A stretch of DNA of 37,870 bases from Actinomycetota bacterium (GTDB taxonomy: Bacteria; Actinomycetota; Actinomycetes; Nanopelagicales; Nanopelagicaceae): positions 1 to 37,870 of the forward strand of contig WLQG01000008.1 in NCBI GenBank assembly GCA_009698445.1, written 5' to 3'. Positions 11,895 to 26,321 of this stretch are shown one piece after another; position 1 is the stretch's first letter; the number at the start of each line of letters is the position of its first letter. A model generated the notes under the pieces. The model was not told the DNA's origin and did not search any database. It worked only from the letters and a program-made list of their open reading frames with translations. The position numbers and the translations under genes are program-made.

Positions 11895-12215
11895 TTATTG
11901 CTTCTCTTTACCATCGGCTTCATCGGCCAAAGCCTGCAAATCTGGCCGTGGAATTCGTGGAATATCGCCTTTAGTGAGTCGTCGCCACAAATAAAAAGAA
12001 ACACCAGCAAAAAACGGCCATTCAAATGTGTAAACCCATGCACGCCAGTTGCCACTTTGTGCGCGGCCAAATTCAAACCATCCAGCCCACAAACAAAAAG
12101 GGACAACAATAAATAATGAAATATTTAATATCCGCTTTTGCTTCGTGGTTATTGGTGGAGTTTGCGAATCATTTCTTACCCAGTCAGGGGCTTCAAAACC
12201 ATCGCGGTCAGGCAT
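11895..12215 (-). CDS. Small membrane protein next to ctaG
   Basis: The 106-residue protein has a polar N-terminus (~30 residues), then two hydrophobic segments, about residues 30-48 (LNISLFIVVPFCLWAGWFEF) and 58-77 (WVYTFEWPFFAGVSFYLW), and a charged C-terminal tail. No catalytic motif is visible. The WVYTFEWPFF pattern resembles a conserved actinobacterial membrane protein of unknown function, but I cannot name a family with certainty. The start overlaps the ctaG 3' end by eight bases, so it is co-transcribed with the oxidase assembly factor. A supporting role in respiratory-complex assembly is only a guess from position. Confidence 0.85.
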   Translation of the reverse strand: MPDRDGFEAPDWVRNDSQTPPITTKQKRILNISLFIVVPFCLWAGWFEFGRAQSGNWRAWVYTFEWPFFAGVSFYLWRRLTKGDIPRIPRPDLQALADEADGKEKQ

Positions 12216-12972
12216 TCTCAGCTGCTATCTCTGCATCGATTTCTTGAGATTTCTTTTCTTCAGATTTAATCCAGTGATAAACCGCCAGCGACATCCATAT
12301 GGCATCAATAATCATCGAGCCCGCCCACATAAAAGATCCACCTTGGCGCTGATCGCTCAGCGAATACATGTTGTCGTATAAAGAACCAGGGGCGGTATAG
12401 ATAAAGAAGCCAGTCAAAGTTTCTGGAACCATCATCAGAAATAATGCAATAACGGCAATTGCTGGAGTAACCCGACGGCCCTCTAAATTTCGATCAAGTA
12501 AGTTGAAGTAGAAAAAATATGGAAGCAATAAATAGAGTCCAACTTCTAGATAAGTGTGTGCCCAAGGGTTATCCATGATGAATTTATGTGGGATAGGAAG
12601 GTGAACGCCAATCATTAGTGCGGCGTAAGCGAACCAGCTGAAAAATGGATTAGTTGCGGCGCTAAAAAATTTGTTGGTGGGATGAAAACCTTTAGGAGTT
12701 CCCAACACCAAGAGAGGTCCAGTGATCATCATCAAGGTAATGTGCTGAATCATGTGTAGCGAGAAATAATCCATAGCTCGAGCACCAATAGGTGTCACGA
12801 TTACTGCAAGAGCGCTAAAGATGCCTGCGTAGAAGAAGCCTTGCTGCCTAGGGGTAACTTCACCTTTGGATTGGCGTGCATATAGATATGTAACAAATAA
12901 AAGCGGAAGCAGAATTTCTGGGGCCAACTGCCAGGAAGCCCAGATCCCTACGCCATGATGGTGCATCTGCAT
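12208..12972 (-). CDS. ctaG: CtaG, cytochrome oxidase copper-assembly factor
   Basis: This 254-residue membrane protein has about seven hydrophobic segments and matches the caa3-type CtaG family, with features such as HMIQHITLMMITGPLLVLG, LPIPHKFIMDN and PETLTGFFIY. The family is needed to build active cytochrome oxidase, probably by delivering copper to the CuB site. The N-terminus MQMHHHG is His-rich, which would suit metal contact. It is transcribed divergently from the oxidase structural genes, supporting the role. There is no ribosome site, but TAGGTT lies seven bases before the ATG, suggesting leaderless expression. A 14-base palindrome (12994-13007) lies just upstream. Confidence 0.92.
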   Translation of the reverse strand: MQMHHHGVGIWASWQLAPEILLPLLFVTYLYARQSKGEVTPRQQGFFYAGIFSALAVIVTPIGARAMDYFSLHMIQHITLMMITGPLLVLGTPKGFHPTNKFFSAATNPFFSWFAYAALMIGVHLPIPHKFIMDNPWAHTYLEVGLYLLLPYFFYFNLLDRNLEGRRVTPAIAVIALFLMMVPETLTGFFIYTAPGSLYDNMYSLSDQRQGGSFMWAGSMIIDAIWMSLAVYHWIKSEEKKSQEIDAEIAAENA

Positions 12973-13113: not shown

Positions 13114-13144
13114 TTTCTTAAATTCCCTATCGGGAGGGGCATTG

Positions 13145-13831
13145 ATGAATAAGCGGGTATTTGGCGCGCTTGGAACGGTGATCTTAGGCGTGGCAGTTAT
13201 TGCCGGTGTCGGGTCATATGTTGCTAACGCTAAAAACGATTCAAGAGTTTTAGCGGCGACACCAGCGGGAACGATGGATACACCGCAGGGAACTTTGCCT
13301 CATGCAACTTTAGATATTTCTGTTTACCCAGACAGTATGGCGGGTAGCCACGGAAAAGATGGTGGTGCACACCCTGGTTATGTTACATATGGACCAGTAA
13401 CTAACTATGAAGTCCCAGCACATTCAGTAATCACGATGACTGTTACCAACTATGACGGTGGTGAAAGTTTAAATAACGATTACTTCGCACATGTTCGCGG
13501 AACCATTGATGGCTCAGCACTTCTTAATGGAGAGCGTATGACTCAGATTTCTCCCGATGCAGTTGGTCATACTTTTACTATTCACGGCCTAGCTGTTGGT
13601 CAAGATGAATTTTTTGTAAGCGTTCCGATGAAAGCAGTTGCTGAAGAAGATATGCCAGAAGAAGGATATTCTTCAAAGCCAAGCGTCACAGTCTTTACAT
13701 TTATTACTGGTGGACCTGGCGAATATATTTGGAACTGCGAATACCCATGTGGCGACGGAACGATTGCCAAGTTTGGCGCAGCGATGTCAACAATGGGTTA
13801 TATGTCCGGTCACTTTACGGTGAAGGGATAA
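13145..13831 (+). CDS. Exported cupredoxin-like protein with CuA-like cysteine pair
   Basis: The 228-residue product begins with a signal peptide or anchor (hydrophobic residues 6-26, possible cleavage after YVANA). The rest looks like a beta-rich cupredoxin fold: H142 in GHTFTIHG resembles the KHSF histidine of cytochrome oxidase subunit II, and C198-x3-C202 (WNCEYPCG) resembles the CuA CAELC motif. However, the His and Met that should follow the second Cys are absent; instead there is a Met cluster (M214, M217, M220) in the segment ending MGYMSGHFTV. It heads the operon, six bases before ctaC. It may carry copper for CuA assembly or act as an accessory redox subunit. ATG 13145 is chosen over TTG 13142 because GGGAGGGG sits five bases upstream. 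Confidence 0.85.
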   Translation: MNKRVFGALGTVILGVAVIAGVGSYVANAKNDSRVLAATPAGTMDTPQGTLPHATLDISVYPDSMAGSHGKDGGAHPGYVTYGPVTNYEVPAHSVITMTVTNYDGGESLNNDYFAHVRGTIDGSALLNGERMTQISPDAVGHTFTIHGLAVGQDEFFVSVPMKAVAEEDMPEEGYSSKPSVTVFTFITGGPGEYIWNCEYPCGDGTIAKFGAAMSTMGYMSGHFTVKG

Positions 13832-13837
13832 CGCGCT

Positions 13838-14608
13838 ATGACTGATCTAATGACGCCAAAAACTCCACAATGGTGGAAGAAGTCAGATGTTAAGAAAACA
13901 TTTATCCTCTGGATAATCTGCACAGCAGTTATTGGTTATGTCGGTGTGGAATTCCATGTTCGCAACATGGTTGACCCAGCTTCAGAAACTATGTCTAGTG
14001 TTATTTCTTTGATGCGTATATTTACTTGGGCTGCAGCACCTGTTGCAGGACTTGTAAGCGCAATGAGCCTTACGGTGCTTACTTCAAAGCGCCATTATGG
14101 AGATAACCCACCGGCCGAAGCCGACCATGAAATTCGCAACTCGCCAAAGACAGCTGCAGTTTGGGTAGTTGTTTCTGGGCTTTTGTGCTTATTTGCACTT
14201 GTTGGTGGATTGGTTGTTCTCCAGCATGACAATGAAGCCATTCTGGATTCAAAGGCTATTCAAGTAAATGTAACTGGCCAGCAATGGGTCTGGAACTTTG
14301 ATTATGCAAATGGTGCTCGAAGTGAAGATCTGTATCTTCCAGTAGATAAGCCAGTTGTATTCCACATTACTAGCGTGGATGTTAAGCATTCATTCTGGGT
14401 GGTTCAAATGGGAATCAAAATGGATGCAAATCCGGGTTACATAACCGAGACTGCGGTAACTCCAAACAAGATTGGTGTATTTGATGTTCGATGCGCTGAG
14501 CTGTGCGGGCTACTACATGCATATATGCAAACAAAAGTTCACGTAGTAAGTCAGGCAGATTATGACGCATGGCTAAATGCTCATGCAGCAATGGAGGCAG
14601 GCGCATAA
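13838..14608 (+). CDS. ctaC: Cytochrome c oxidase subunit II
   Basis: The 256-residue protein carries the complete CuA centre: H184 (DVKHSFWV), C219, E221, C223, H227 and M230 (CAELCGLLHAYM). Trp-rich QQWVWNFDY near residue 150 matches the electron-entry region. Three hydrophobic segments (about 20-38, 58-80 and 105-128) precede the periplasm-facing cupredoxin domain; the first may be a retained signal anchor. There is no fused cytochrome c domain. It accepts electrons from cytochrome c or the bc complex and passes them to subunit I. It lies six bases after the cupredoxin-like gene and overlaps ctaD by one base. Confidence 0.96.
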   Translation: MTDLMTPKTPQWWKKSDVKKTFILWIICTAVIGYVGVEFHVRNMVDPASETMSSVISLMRIFTWAAAPVAGLVSAMSLTVLTSKRHYGDNPPAEADHEIRNSPKTAAVWVVVSGLLCLFALVGGLVVLQHDNEAILDSKAIQVNVTGQQWVWNFDYANGARSEDLYLPVDKPVVFHITSVDVKHSFWVVQMGIKMDANPGYITETAVTPNKIGVFDVRCAELCGLLHAYMQTKVHVVSQADYDAWLNAHAAMEAGA

Positions 14609-16473
14609 TGACAACTCTTACTCAACACACATCAACTGCACCTGGTAAATCAATCATTGAGAAACTCAATGTCTTTACAGCACTTGCACTAGGAGTAATT
14701 AGCGCAGTTGTTGTTTGGCGATTGTCGCTTGCATTTTTGCCACAAGACGGTGAAGAGGTTCGTCTATTTTCACGTGAAGATAAAATCACATTGCTTTCAA
14801 TGTGTGCATGGTTCGTTGGATTTATGACTGGTATTGGCGCTCTTGTTGGGCCAATGCGTTGGGTTATGGGTAAAGATTTAGCTCATGATGAAAACATGTT
14901 TTTGGCCGGAGAAAATATGGGGCCAAAGAGATATTTCCGATATACAACTGATCACAAAGTTGTAGGTATTCAATACCTCTTCATCACAATTTTAATTTTC
15001 TTCTTGGGTGGTGGTTTAGCGATGTTAATTCGCACAAACCTTGGAACCCCCGAGGGTGGCTGGTTACATGCGCAGGCATATAACTCAATCGTTGGAACAC
15101 ATGGAATTTTGATGATCGTAGGAACAATCATCATGGTTACTGGACCTTTCGGTAACTTCATCATGCCAATCATGATTGGCGCTAGAGATATGGCTTTCCC
15201 ACGCCTTAATGCTTTGAGTTTCTGGCTCATTGTTGCGGCAGCTGTTCCACTTATCTGGGGACAGTTCATTGGTGGAATTACGACTGGTTGGTCTGCGTAT
15301 AACCCGTTGGCTGGTCAAGCACCGTTAGGTATGGATGGGTACATCATGTACATCTGTATCTTTGCAATTTCCACTATGGTCGCCGGTGCAAATATCACCA
15401 CAACTGTTGTGAAAATGCGTGCAAAGGGAATGACGTGGAATCGCACACCAATCTTTATTTACGGAACTGTGGCATCAGTTGCACTTGCGCTGCCAGCATT
15501 TCCAGTCTTCTTCTTGTCACAAGTTCTTTCAGCATTCGACCGCGCTTTAGATACTTCTTTCTATAACACCGCAGGTGGTGGCAGTGGATGGTTGTATGAA
15601 AACTTATTCTGGATTATGGGCCACCCTGAGGTCTATGTAATTTTGATCCCTGCAGTTGCAGCGTTAATGGAAATGGCGCCGGTATTTACACGCCGTCCAC
15701 TATTTTCATTCAATATTGCAGTTCTTGGTATCGCTGGCATCTCAGGTCTATCAGTTTTGGTATGGGCACACCACATGTACATCTCAGGATGGGCGCCATT
15801 ACTTAATGCACCATTTATGTTGACGACCGAATTGATTTCAATACCAACTGGAATGTTGTTCTTGGTATTAATCGGAACGTTATGGCGTGGTCGGATTTGG
15901 ATGACAATGCCATTGATGTCAATTTTCGCATTGTTATGGAACTTCATGATCGGTGGAGTCACAGGAATTTATCTCTCAGATGTTCCTGCTGATGCTTTCT
16001 TGCACGGTTCAATGTATGTAACCGCGCACTTCCACTACACATTGATGGGCGCTGGTTTAACTGGTGCACTTGCATCACTTGTCTACTGGTTCCCAAAGAT
16101 GACCGGTCGCATGTTTGATAAGACTCTGAGCTGGATTGCTTTCTGGATGGTTCAGATCGGCTTCAACGTAGCCTTTATTGGTATGTTTATGGTTGGCCTT
16201 GCTGGTCAACCTCGACGCGTCGAGTCATATGCGCCAACATTTAATACTGCCAACTTAGTAACAACAATTGGTGCTTACACAATCATGATCGGAATGTTAG
16301 TTCTGCTCCATGGTGTGATTTCATCAGCTCGCAATGGTGTTAAAGCTCCTAAAAACCCATGGCAAGCCAAGACATTGGAATGGACTGTTGATTATCCAAT
16401 TCCACTCGAGAACTTCGATGTTCTACCTGTAGTTACAACAGATCCATACGGTTATGGAAAGGCAAAGTCATGA
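14608..16473 (+). CDS. ctaD: Cytochrome c oxidase subunit I
   Basis: The 621-residue heme-copper oxidase subunit reduces oxygen and pumps protons. Visible ligands are H165 (VGTHG), the CuB and cross-link motif GHPEVY (H339, E341, Y343), H388-H389 (AHHMYISG) and H474/H476 (AHFHYTL). D194 in GARDMAFPRLN is the D-channel entry and E341 the channel glutamate, so this is an A-type, aa3-like enzyme. Unusually, about 110 residues with two extra predicted helices (about 22-44 and 60-87) precede the normal first helix, which follows YTTDHKVVG. ATG 14608 overlaps the ctaC stop by one base; an upstream in-frame ATG at 14569 would lie inside ctaC and is less likely. Confidence 0.96.
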   Translation: MTTLTQHTSTAPGKSIIEKLNVFTALALGVISAVVVWRLSLAFLPQDGEEVRLFSREDKITLLSMCAWFVGFMTGIGALVGPMRWVMGKDLAHDENMFLAGENMGPKRYFRYTTDHKVVGIQYLFITILIFFLGGGLAMLIRTNLGTPEGGWLHAQAYNSIVGTHGILMIVGTIIMVTGPFGNFIMPIMIGARDMAFPRLNALSFWLIVAAAVPLIWGQFIGGITTGWSAYNPLAGQAPLGMDGYIMYICIFAISTMVAGANITTTVVKMRAKGMTWNRTPIFIYGTVASVALALPAFPVFFLSQVLSAFDRALDTSFYNTAGGGSGWLYENLFWIMGHPEVYVILIPAVAALMEMAPVFTRRPLFSFNIAVLGIAGISGLSVLVWAHHMYISGWAPLLNAPFMLTTELISIPTGMLFLVLIGTLWRGRIWMTMPLMSIFALLWNFMIGGVTGIYLSDVPADAFLHGSMYVTAHFHYTLMGAGLTGALASLVYWFPKMTGRMFDKTLSWIAFWMVQIGFNVAFIGMFMVGLAGQPRRVESYAPTFNTANLVTTIGAYTIMIGMLVLLHGVISSARNGVKAPKNPWQAKTLEWTVDYPIPLENFDVLPVVTTDPYGYGKAKS

Positions 16474-17072
16474 GCGTAGAGACACACGCACACCACGAAC
16501 ATCCAGATGTAGTTGGAAGTCGTAATCGCCTTGGCGTTATCTTGCTTCTTGTTGCAGATATTGCATTTGCACTCAGCATGGTCTTCGTCTACTTCTACTT
16601 ACGTGGCCAAAATGTAAACAACATGTGGCTGCCTGCAGCAACTGCCGATCATCCAGCTATCGAACCATTATCAGCTGGTCCAGGTTGGACAGTCACTGCA
16701 ATTGCAGCGTTTGGATTACTTGCGCACATGTATGGATTAAAGGGTGCGCGTTCACAGAATCAGACACAGTTGAAGTTAGGTTCTTTGGTTGCCCTTGTTG
16801 CTTCAGTTATTGCAATTGGTTATCAATACAACACAATTTCATCTGCGCCATTTACATTCTCAGATGGTGCCTATGTTTCATGCTTCTATATGTTTGCATT
16901 TCTCAACATGGTGCACTTACTTCTCACCCTATTCATCTCATTTGGAAACTGGAACCGTGCTCGCTTGGGCTTGTACGTCGAAAATTTCTGGCACGTCGAT
17001 ATCGTGAGAATATGGTGGATCTGGATGGTTGTGTCATCATTACTCGGTGCATTCAGCCTCAGTTATCCATAA
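16470..17072 (+). CDS. ctaE: Cytochrome c oxidase subunit III
   Basis: The 200-residue membrane protein has about five hydrophobic segments and fits the short subunit III typical of actinobacteria. Recognisable features are RLGVILLLVADIAFALSMVFVYFYLR at residues 20-45 and the C-terminal FWHVDIVRIWWIWMVVSSLLG segment. Subunit III stabilises the oxidase core and proton uptake. The ATG overlaps the ctaD stop by four bases. Unlike in many actinobacteria, the bc1 genes qcrCAB do not follow; a transporter gene begins inside the 3' end instead. Confidence 0.95.
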   Translation: MSVETHAHHEHPDVVGSRNRLGVILLLVADIAFALSMVFVYFYLRGQNVNNMWLPAATADHPAIEPLSAGPGWTVTAIAAFGLLAHMYGLKGARSQNQTQLKLGSLVALVASVIAIGYQYNTISSAPFTFSDGAYVSCFYMFAFLNMVHLLLTLFISFGNWNRARLGLYVENFWHVDIVRIWWIWMVVSSLLGAFSLSYP

Positions 17073-25451: not shown

Positions 25452-26321
25452 GTGAGCACAACTATGCGGGGCTATCTAGATCTAATGAAGCTTCGGGTAG
25501 TAGAACTCCTTTTGATCTCGACCCTACCGGCGATGGTTTTAGCGGCTAAGGGCCTTCCTTCATTTTCACTGGTAGCTGCAACAATTTTTGCTGGAACCTT
25601 ATCTGCTGGAAGTGCTAACGCTTTTAATATGGTTATCGAAAGCGATATCGATAAATTAATGGCCCGCACATCAAAACGGCCAATTGTCACTGGAGTTATT
25701 AGTAAGACAAATGCTGCACTTTTTGCAACAGTAATTGGCGCTATCTCTTTAGTTATGTTTTGGGTTTTCACAACACCACTTGCAACGTTATTAGCTTTAA
25801 TTGCGATTGCTTTCTATGTTCTTATTTATACGATGGCTTTAAAGCGCAGAACATCACAGAATATAGTTTGGGGCGGTGCAGCTGGTTGTATGCCTGTGCT
25901 GATCGGCTGGGCAGCGGTAACAAATTCACTTTCATTAACTGCTGTGGCATTTTTTATGGTTATCTTCTTTTGGACGCCACCGCATTTCTGGGCGTTAGCA
26001 ATTAAGTACAAAGATGATTATTCAGCAGCTGGAATCCCGATGTTGCCAGTAGTTGCAACCCAAGCCCGCGTTCATAAAGAGATGTGGTTTCACACAATCA
26101 TGATGATTGGGTGTTCAATCTGGTTAATAAGCTCAGCTGGATTACCGCTGTGGTCAATGGTTGTAACAGTTCTACTGGGACTTGTGTTTGCTCGAGAACT
26201 AGTTGCGCTAAAAGAAGGTTCGGATACTTATAGTAAAACTGCCGCAAAGATATTTCAGTGGTCTATTACTTATTTAAGTTTGTTTTCCGTAGTGCTTGTT
26301 GCGGCTCAGCTCAGCGCTTGA
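25452..26321 (+). CDS. ctaB: Heme o synthase (protoheme IX farnesyltransferase)
   Basis: The 289-residue membrane protein belongs to the UbiA prenyltransferase superfamily. The first Asp motif is in NMVIESDIDKLMARTSKRP, and the second-loop signature WTPPHFWALAIKYKDDY is specific to the CtaB/CyoE branch. About eight to nine helices are visible. It adds a farnesyl tail to heme b to give heme o, the precursor of heme a for the aa3 oxidase encoded at 13838-17072. The GTG start is favoured by the -10 spacing; ATG 25464 is the alternative. The end overlaps the opposing metZ gene by 16 bases. Confidence 0.95.
   Translation: MSTTMRGYLDLMKLRVVELLLISTLPAMVLAAKGLPSFSLVAATIFAGTLSAGSANAFNMVIESDIDKLMARTSKRPIVTGVISKTNAALFATVIGAISLVMFWVFTTPLATLLALIAIAFYVLIYTMALKRRTSQNIVWGGAAGCMPVLIGWAAVTNSLSLTAVAFFMVIFFWTPPHFWALAIKYKDDYSAAGIPMLPVVATQARVHKEMWFHTIMMIGCSIWLISSAGLPLWSMVVTVLLGLVFARELVALKEGSDTYSKTAAKIFQWSITYLSLFSVVLVAAQLSA

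Follow-up and report, generated by a model that had tools for sequence, protein, structure and literature searches.

A membrane-anchored cupredoxin encoded ahead of an accessory cytochrome oxidase in actinobacteria: a possible electron-transfer partner of the CuA subunit

What does the protein do whose gene stands at the head of a cytochrome oxidase operon, immediately before the gene of the CuA subunit, when it resembles that subunit itself? The question is raised by the window, that is, the whole stretch of 37,870 nucleotides analysed here, which belongs to an actinobacterium of the family Nanopelagicaceae (contig WLQG01000008.1). The original prediction saw in this gene a relative of the CuA domain, and the coordinates of its reading frame and the numbers of the residues singled out (H142, C198, C202, M214, M217 and M220) all proved correct. 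The features on which the argument depends are the following.

13145..13831, forward strand: cupredoxin-domain protein of 228 aa, putative oxidase partner; open reading frame with ATG start, a membrane helix followed by an exported domain
13132..13138, forward strand: Shine-Dalgarno-like GGGAGGG (GGGAGGGG), read in the sequence upstream of the ATG at 13145
13151..13228, forward strand: N-terminal membrane helix or uncleaved signal anchor, residues 3-28; helix in the AlphaFold model, no lipobox Cys
13838..14608, forward strand: ctaC, accessory oxidase subunit II; Pfam COX2 4e-18, TIGR02866 2.8e-43; complete CuA motif HSFW ... CAELCGLLHAYM
14608..16473, forward strand: ctaD, accessory oxidase subunit I; Pfam COX1 2.4e-117; the genome has two COX1 genes, of which this is the second
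16470..17072, forward strand: ctaE, subunit III; Pfam COX3 7.9e-09; overlaps ctaD by 4 bases
12208..12972, reverse strand: ctaG of the Caa3_CtaG type, proposed CuB assembly factor; Pfam Caa3_CtaG 4.1e-34; divergent
11895..12215, reverse strand: small protein of 106 aa, 3' of ctaG; no significant Pfam family
25452..26321, forward strand: UbiA-family prenyltransferase, PF01040 8.9e-60, about 8 kb 3' of the operon; probably the haem O synthase CtaB

A conserved place before ctaC

The operon reads cupredoxin-ctaC-ctaD-ctaE, with the ATG of ctaD at the stop of ctaC (14608). The start proposed by the reading-frame program, a TTG at 13142, lies one codon 5' of the ATG at 13145. The cupredoxin gene is a genuine one, subject to strong purifying selection and not a product of chance, because dN/dS against nine close relatives is 0.02-0.10 and five residues of the protein are invariant. 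Its position at the head of the operon, noted in the original prediction together with the question whether it always precedes ctaC, is a rule of the family: ctaC lies directly 3' on the same strand in 73/73 distinct relatives with at least 500 bases downstream, out of 76 distinct members, after a gap that is typically 10-20 bases and mostly below 50 (gene positions in GC-rich relatives were set with profiles). The same order recurs elsewhere in the phylum, in further families and classes, and the neighbouring CtaC proteins retain the CuA motif, as judged by regular expression and by inspection of their tails. Upstream, ctaG is found within 1.5 kb of the cupredoxin gene in 58/63 relatives, in 54 of them divergently. 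The 106-aa small protein is found with the cluster at 53 loci and is tied to ctaG in many relatives. Two units of cupredoxin plus ctaC occur in tandem in one locus (L025:308-5111), and in another they stand on opposite strands, separated by about 7 kb (G210:C68:80239-88266).

The candidate metal site, its fold and its kinship

How close to CuA is the putative site? The residues in question are encoded as follows.

13568..13570, forward strand: H142; invariant in 48/48 members, in the hhalign register of the first CuA His
13736..13750, forward strand: C198-x3-C202 (CEYPC); 48/48 members and invariant in A3, in the register of the CuA Cys pair
13784..13786, forward strand: M214; 48/48 members and invariant in A3, in the extended loop without CuA counterpart
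13802..13804, forward strand: M220; 48/48 members and invariant in A3, in the register of the CuA Met

Among the 48 distinct aligned members, W196, N197, E199, P201, G203, D204, F210, G211 and G222 are invariant alongside H142, C198, C202, M214 and M220. The set A3, ten sequences going down to 21-30% identity (range 21-53%), keeps only eleven invariant columns, and one His, both Cys and both Met are among them. C198 and C202 are the only Cys of the whole protein. The subunit-II-like His and C-x3-C pair from which the original prediction started are borne out, invariant and in register with the CuA ligands, and the failure of conservation that might have been feared for the cysteines is not realised in any of the 48 members. 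The further claim, that both the following His and the Met of CuA had been lost, stands for the His only. No His lies within the loop, whose spacing is C198-x3-C202-x11-M214-x5-M220; the column of the second CuA His is variable across the 48 members in the profile register, and no conserved His follows C198, H223, C-terminal of M220, being present in 27/48. The Met, on the other hand, is kept, since M220 (YMSG) falls on the CuA Met of CtaC (YMQT). The longer loop was rightly predicted: the profile alignment places an insertion of about 11 residues before M220, and the second CuA His lies opposite this loop. On these alignments the CuA-like description holds, with one CuA ligand apparently missing and not two, and M214 is a candidate substitute for the missing His. 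As for the supposed Met cluster, M214 and M220 are invariant, but residue 217 varies between M, Q, Y, L, D and G and a functional role for it is unsupported. Short relatives differ in how far the first Met stands from the second Cys, but the Met residues are constant; in a few members (L062, L064, L066) two insertions lengthen the cupredoxin domain by about 30 residues.

AlphaFold models the protein as a membrane helix (residues 3-28) and a beta sandwich, with a mean pLDDT of 75 for the whole protein and 79 for the soluble part, the copper loop being below 50. Foldseek matches this model to auracyanin (2.5e-5), rusticyanin (3.5e-5), ba3 subunit II (5.9e-4) and the crystal structure of AcoP (7z3f, 1.1e-3). 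VIA-align gives NosZ and CuA domains at Z 8.1-8.2 and 22-26% identity, pneumococcal CopA-MBD and CupA at Z 9.4-9.6 over 97-98 residues and 2.2-2.3 A, nitrosocyanin at Z 9.3 and the B. anthracis Cupredoxin_1 protein 4hcf with 88/88 residues at 1.8 A; multicopper oxidase domains are also in this top set, in which all Z values are 8-9.7 and mostly tied. The predicted fold is that of a cupredoxin, and the unrelated fold that would have spoken against the original prediction did not appear. The ancestry shared with subunit-II/CuA domains, also predicted, is recovered by profile comparison through bridging relatives, to which the family is joined with an E value of 1.3e-35 and which match the neighbouring CtaC proteins with a probability of 92% (E 5.6e-7), His, both Cys and Met in register. 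This kinship rests on the bridging relatives because the direct comparison of the family with CtaC is weak (probability 1%, E 0.056), with an unchanged register.

Does the protein belong to a described family? None fits, as the original prediction suspected: the window protein has no Pfam or NCBIfam family at E values up to 1, PHROGs and PDB sequence searches with it gave no relevant match, and in the literature searched we found AcoP but no paper describing the cupredoxin family. The first profile had one PDB match, to a viral polyprotein without relation to it (0.03), judged to be chance. Several known groups were considered and rejected. Membership of COX2 (PF00116) is not backed by a profile match, and the ligand set His, Cys-x3-Cys, x3-His, x2-Met is incomplete. 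Compared with the CuA domains of subunit II and NosZ, the first His, Cys-x3-Cys, the terminal Met and the beta sandwich are in register, whereas the window protein differs from subunit II in the absent second His, the 11-residue insertion with M214, the single membrane helix, a large insertion before H142 and the lack of a Pfam COX2 match. The beta sandwich is that of type 1 (blue/green/red) cupredoxins, but the ligands of these are two His and one Cys, with the second His just behind the Cys, and the window protein has no conserved His after C198. Cupredoxin_1 (PF13473), whose member 4hcf shares the fold, as nitrosocyanin does, gives no Pfam match to the window protein above the curated cut-off, which only remote short relatives pass (L093/L094). 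Neither Sco (PF02630) nor PCuAC (PF04314) matches by profile. Sco proteins have a thioredoxin fold, with Cys-x3-Cys and His; what the cupredoxin may have in common with Sco and PCuAC is a role in CuA maturation. The sequence does not contain the PCuAC motif, H(M)X10MX21HXM (PMC9145763).

The closest parallel in layout is AcoP of Acidithiobacillus, a TM-anchored cupredoxin encoded in oxidase clusters; it copurifies with the oxidase, and electrons pass between it and cytochrome c4 (PMC4059628, PMC5982212). Both proteins have an N-terminal membrane helix and a single cupredoxin domain, both genes lie in oxidase clusters, and the fold match, though weak, is there. Their sites differ: that of AcoP is a type 1 set, H85 and C159-X6-H166-X4-M171 (PMC4059628), whereas the window protein lacks the second His and has an extra Cys and an extra Met. 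Membership of the AcoP sequence family was rejected, the C-X6-H-X4-M copper loop being absent and no sequence match found.

Co-inheritance with a second oxidase

In the public collection, the named relatives are actinobacteria, many of them freshwater bins; they include the single-cell genome SCGC AAA044-N04 (98% identity) and, at 87%, a bin of Candidatus Planktophila. The gene has been retained in several bacterial families and in further classes of the phylum, and no relatives were found on plasmids. Its distribution is patchy. In a sample of the phylum, 14/396 genomes carry it, and because the wider profile A3 finds the same 14 as A1, the patchiness within this sample is not due to a narrow query. 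Most near-complete genomes of the window's own genus lack the cupredoxin (G016, G028, G040, G051 and others) and, where tested, lack the second oxidase too, which marks the cluster as a patchy accessory trait.

In 61 genomes of the family Nanopelagicaceae, a second haem-copper oxidase COX1 is present in 22/22 carriers of the cupredoxin versus 1/39 non-carriers (p 1e-15), the COX1 matches having been sorted into two types by eye, from score and frame length, with one fragment (G014) left unsorted. In all 22 carriers the second COX1 is of a distinct type and stands beside the ordinary one; in the sole non-carrier that has it (G039), the contig begins within 136 bases of the match. Tree distances correlate at r 0.94 between cupredoxin and ctaC, 0.92 between cupredoxin and ctaD and 0.955 between ctaC and ctaD. 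The oxidase downstream of the cupredoxin gene is a second, accessory one, and the cupredoxin gene is co-inherited with it; neither point was made in the original prediction, nor was the conservation of the five-residue H-C-C-M-M set throughout the superfamily.

How do electrons reach this second oxidase? The PF13442 model, the one used in the search and blind to other cytochrome types, picks out in essence a single dihaem protein in each genome, about 270 residues long and consistent with QcrC, so that no separate cytochrome c carrier is seen for the second oxidase. Some freshwater actinobacteria have, then, a second oxidase without visible free cytochrome c, for which the cupredoxin is the obvious candidate electron link.

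Three distant relatives are not beside an oxidase: two stand directly before genes of NrfD-type quinone modules and the third near response regulators. At the two NrfD-type loci (L106:5245-8926 and L113:2867-7363) the cupredoxin gene occurs once or as a tandem array of up to four, a 4Fe-4S protein is encoded at one of them, and neither stretch contains an oxidase gene. Possibly, a quinone module feeds a cupredoxin there.

Electron relay or copper chaperone?

The reading that we favour, with a probability of about 0.48, is that the protein is a membrane-anchored cupredoxin dedicated to the downstream accessory aa3-type oxidase, relaying electrons to the CuA of CtaC. It would descend from an ancestor shared with the subunit-II/CuA cupredoxin and would have retained one His, the Cys-x3-Cys and the Met, the second CuA His having been replaced by the 11-residue-longer loop with its second invariant Met. 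Copper would be bound through H142, C198, C202, M214 and M220, and the protein would dock beside CtaC on the outer face of the membrane. The respiratory chain would supply the electrons, through the single dihaem QcrC or another donor, and the cupredoxin would pass them to the CuA of the accessory oxidase, in a layout that would work like AcoP with a different site. We infer copper binding, at a mono- or dinuclear site, as well as docking and the direction of electron flow. A redox partner is favoured because the operon rule is strict, the gene is co-inherited with the oxidase, no free cytochrome c is visible, relatives are linked to NrfD and AcoP sets a precedent. Surface charge gives no argument for a simple electrostatic docking, since both soluble domains are acidic (pI 4.7 for the cupredoxin, 5.1 for CtaC).

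Could such a site carry electrons? Engineered CuA sites tolerate losing one His, which makes a redox-active site possible for a cupredoxin partner; we know of no natural electron-transfer copper site with a single His, two Cys and two Met. Until now the loss of a CuA His and the gain of a Met have been explored mainly by engineering, and the family could be a natural test case of both. That it represents an undescribed natural copper centre, a CuA-derived His-Cys-Cys-Met-Met site on a separate anchored protein, acting as a relay in series with CuA where no free cytochrome c is apparent, is a bolder proposal and somewhat unlikely. Other points, too, speak against a relay. Two Cys plus Met would favour Cu(I), as befits a chaperone; the copper loop is predicted at a pLDDT below 50; the fold matches to CopA-MBD and CupA are no weaker by score than those to electron carriers; and QcrC could serve both oxidases directly.

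The main rival, possible if doubtful, is a dedicated Cu(I) metallochaperone that would load or repair the CuA of CtaC, performing the role of PCuAC or Sco on a CuA-like cupredoxin whose Cys pair, His and Met would hold Cu(I). On chemistry it is nearly as strong as the relay, the soft set of two Cys, two Met and one His being suited to Cu(I). It is also favoured by the place of the gene next to that of the proposed CuB factor CtaG and by the presence among the top fold matches of two proteins of Streptococcus pneumoniae, the Cu(I) chaperone CupA and CopA-MBD. To our knowledge these two act in copper export and have not been described from oxidase operons. In a comparison by fold only, they share with the window protein the cupredoxin fold, Cys and Met as ligands (putative in the window protein) and, in CupA, a membrane anchor; the site of CupA is a bis-thiolate plus a Met-rich one (PMC7558416). 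The usual chaperones point both ways. PCuAC is found in 1/61 genomes of the family and is missing from all carriers, and 8/22 carriers have no Sco, including the 100%-complete G003. However, strong Sco matches are present in 14/22 carriers versus 1/39 non-carriers (p 2e-7), so the cupredoxin is not a simple Sco substitute. Moreover, the non-carriers that have an ordinary CuA oxidase do without the cupredoxin, the two distant relatives beside NrfD-type genes have no CuA subunit in the stretch, and so strict a placement in the operon (73/73) is more subunit-like than one usually sees in an assembly factor. Sco accompanies the accessory oxidase in G005, G006, G007, G015, G021, G022, G027, G032, G033, G034, G044, G045, G055 and G060, its gene being sometimes right 3' of ctaE on the opposite strand.

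Co-inheritance and operon position would fit any subunit of the oxidase, including a stable structural or protective one that would act as a docking platform with a silent metal site or a C198-C202 disulfide; AcoP does keep the oxidase active at the acidic pH that is physiological for it (PMC4059628). We consider this improbable, because the superfamily-wide invariance of H142, M214 and M220 with both Cys argues for a metal site and not for a mere disulfide. Lastly, a degenerate duplicate of subunit II with no function of its own, which the absent second CuA His and the distant relationship to CtaC might suggest, is hardly credible, being contradicted by the strong purifying selection (dN/dS 0.02-0.10), by ligand-type residues kept in 48/48 members and by retention of the gene across families and classes.
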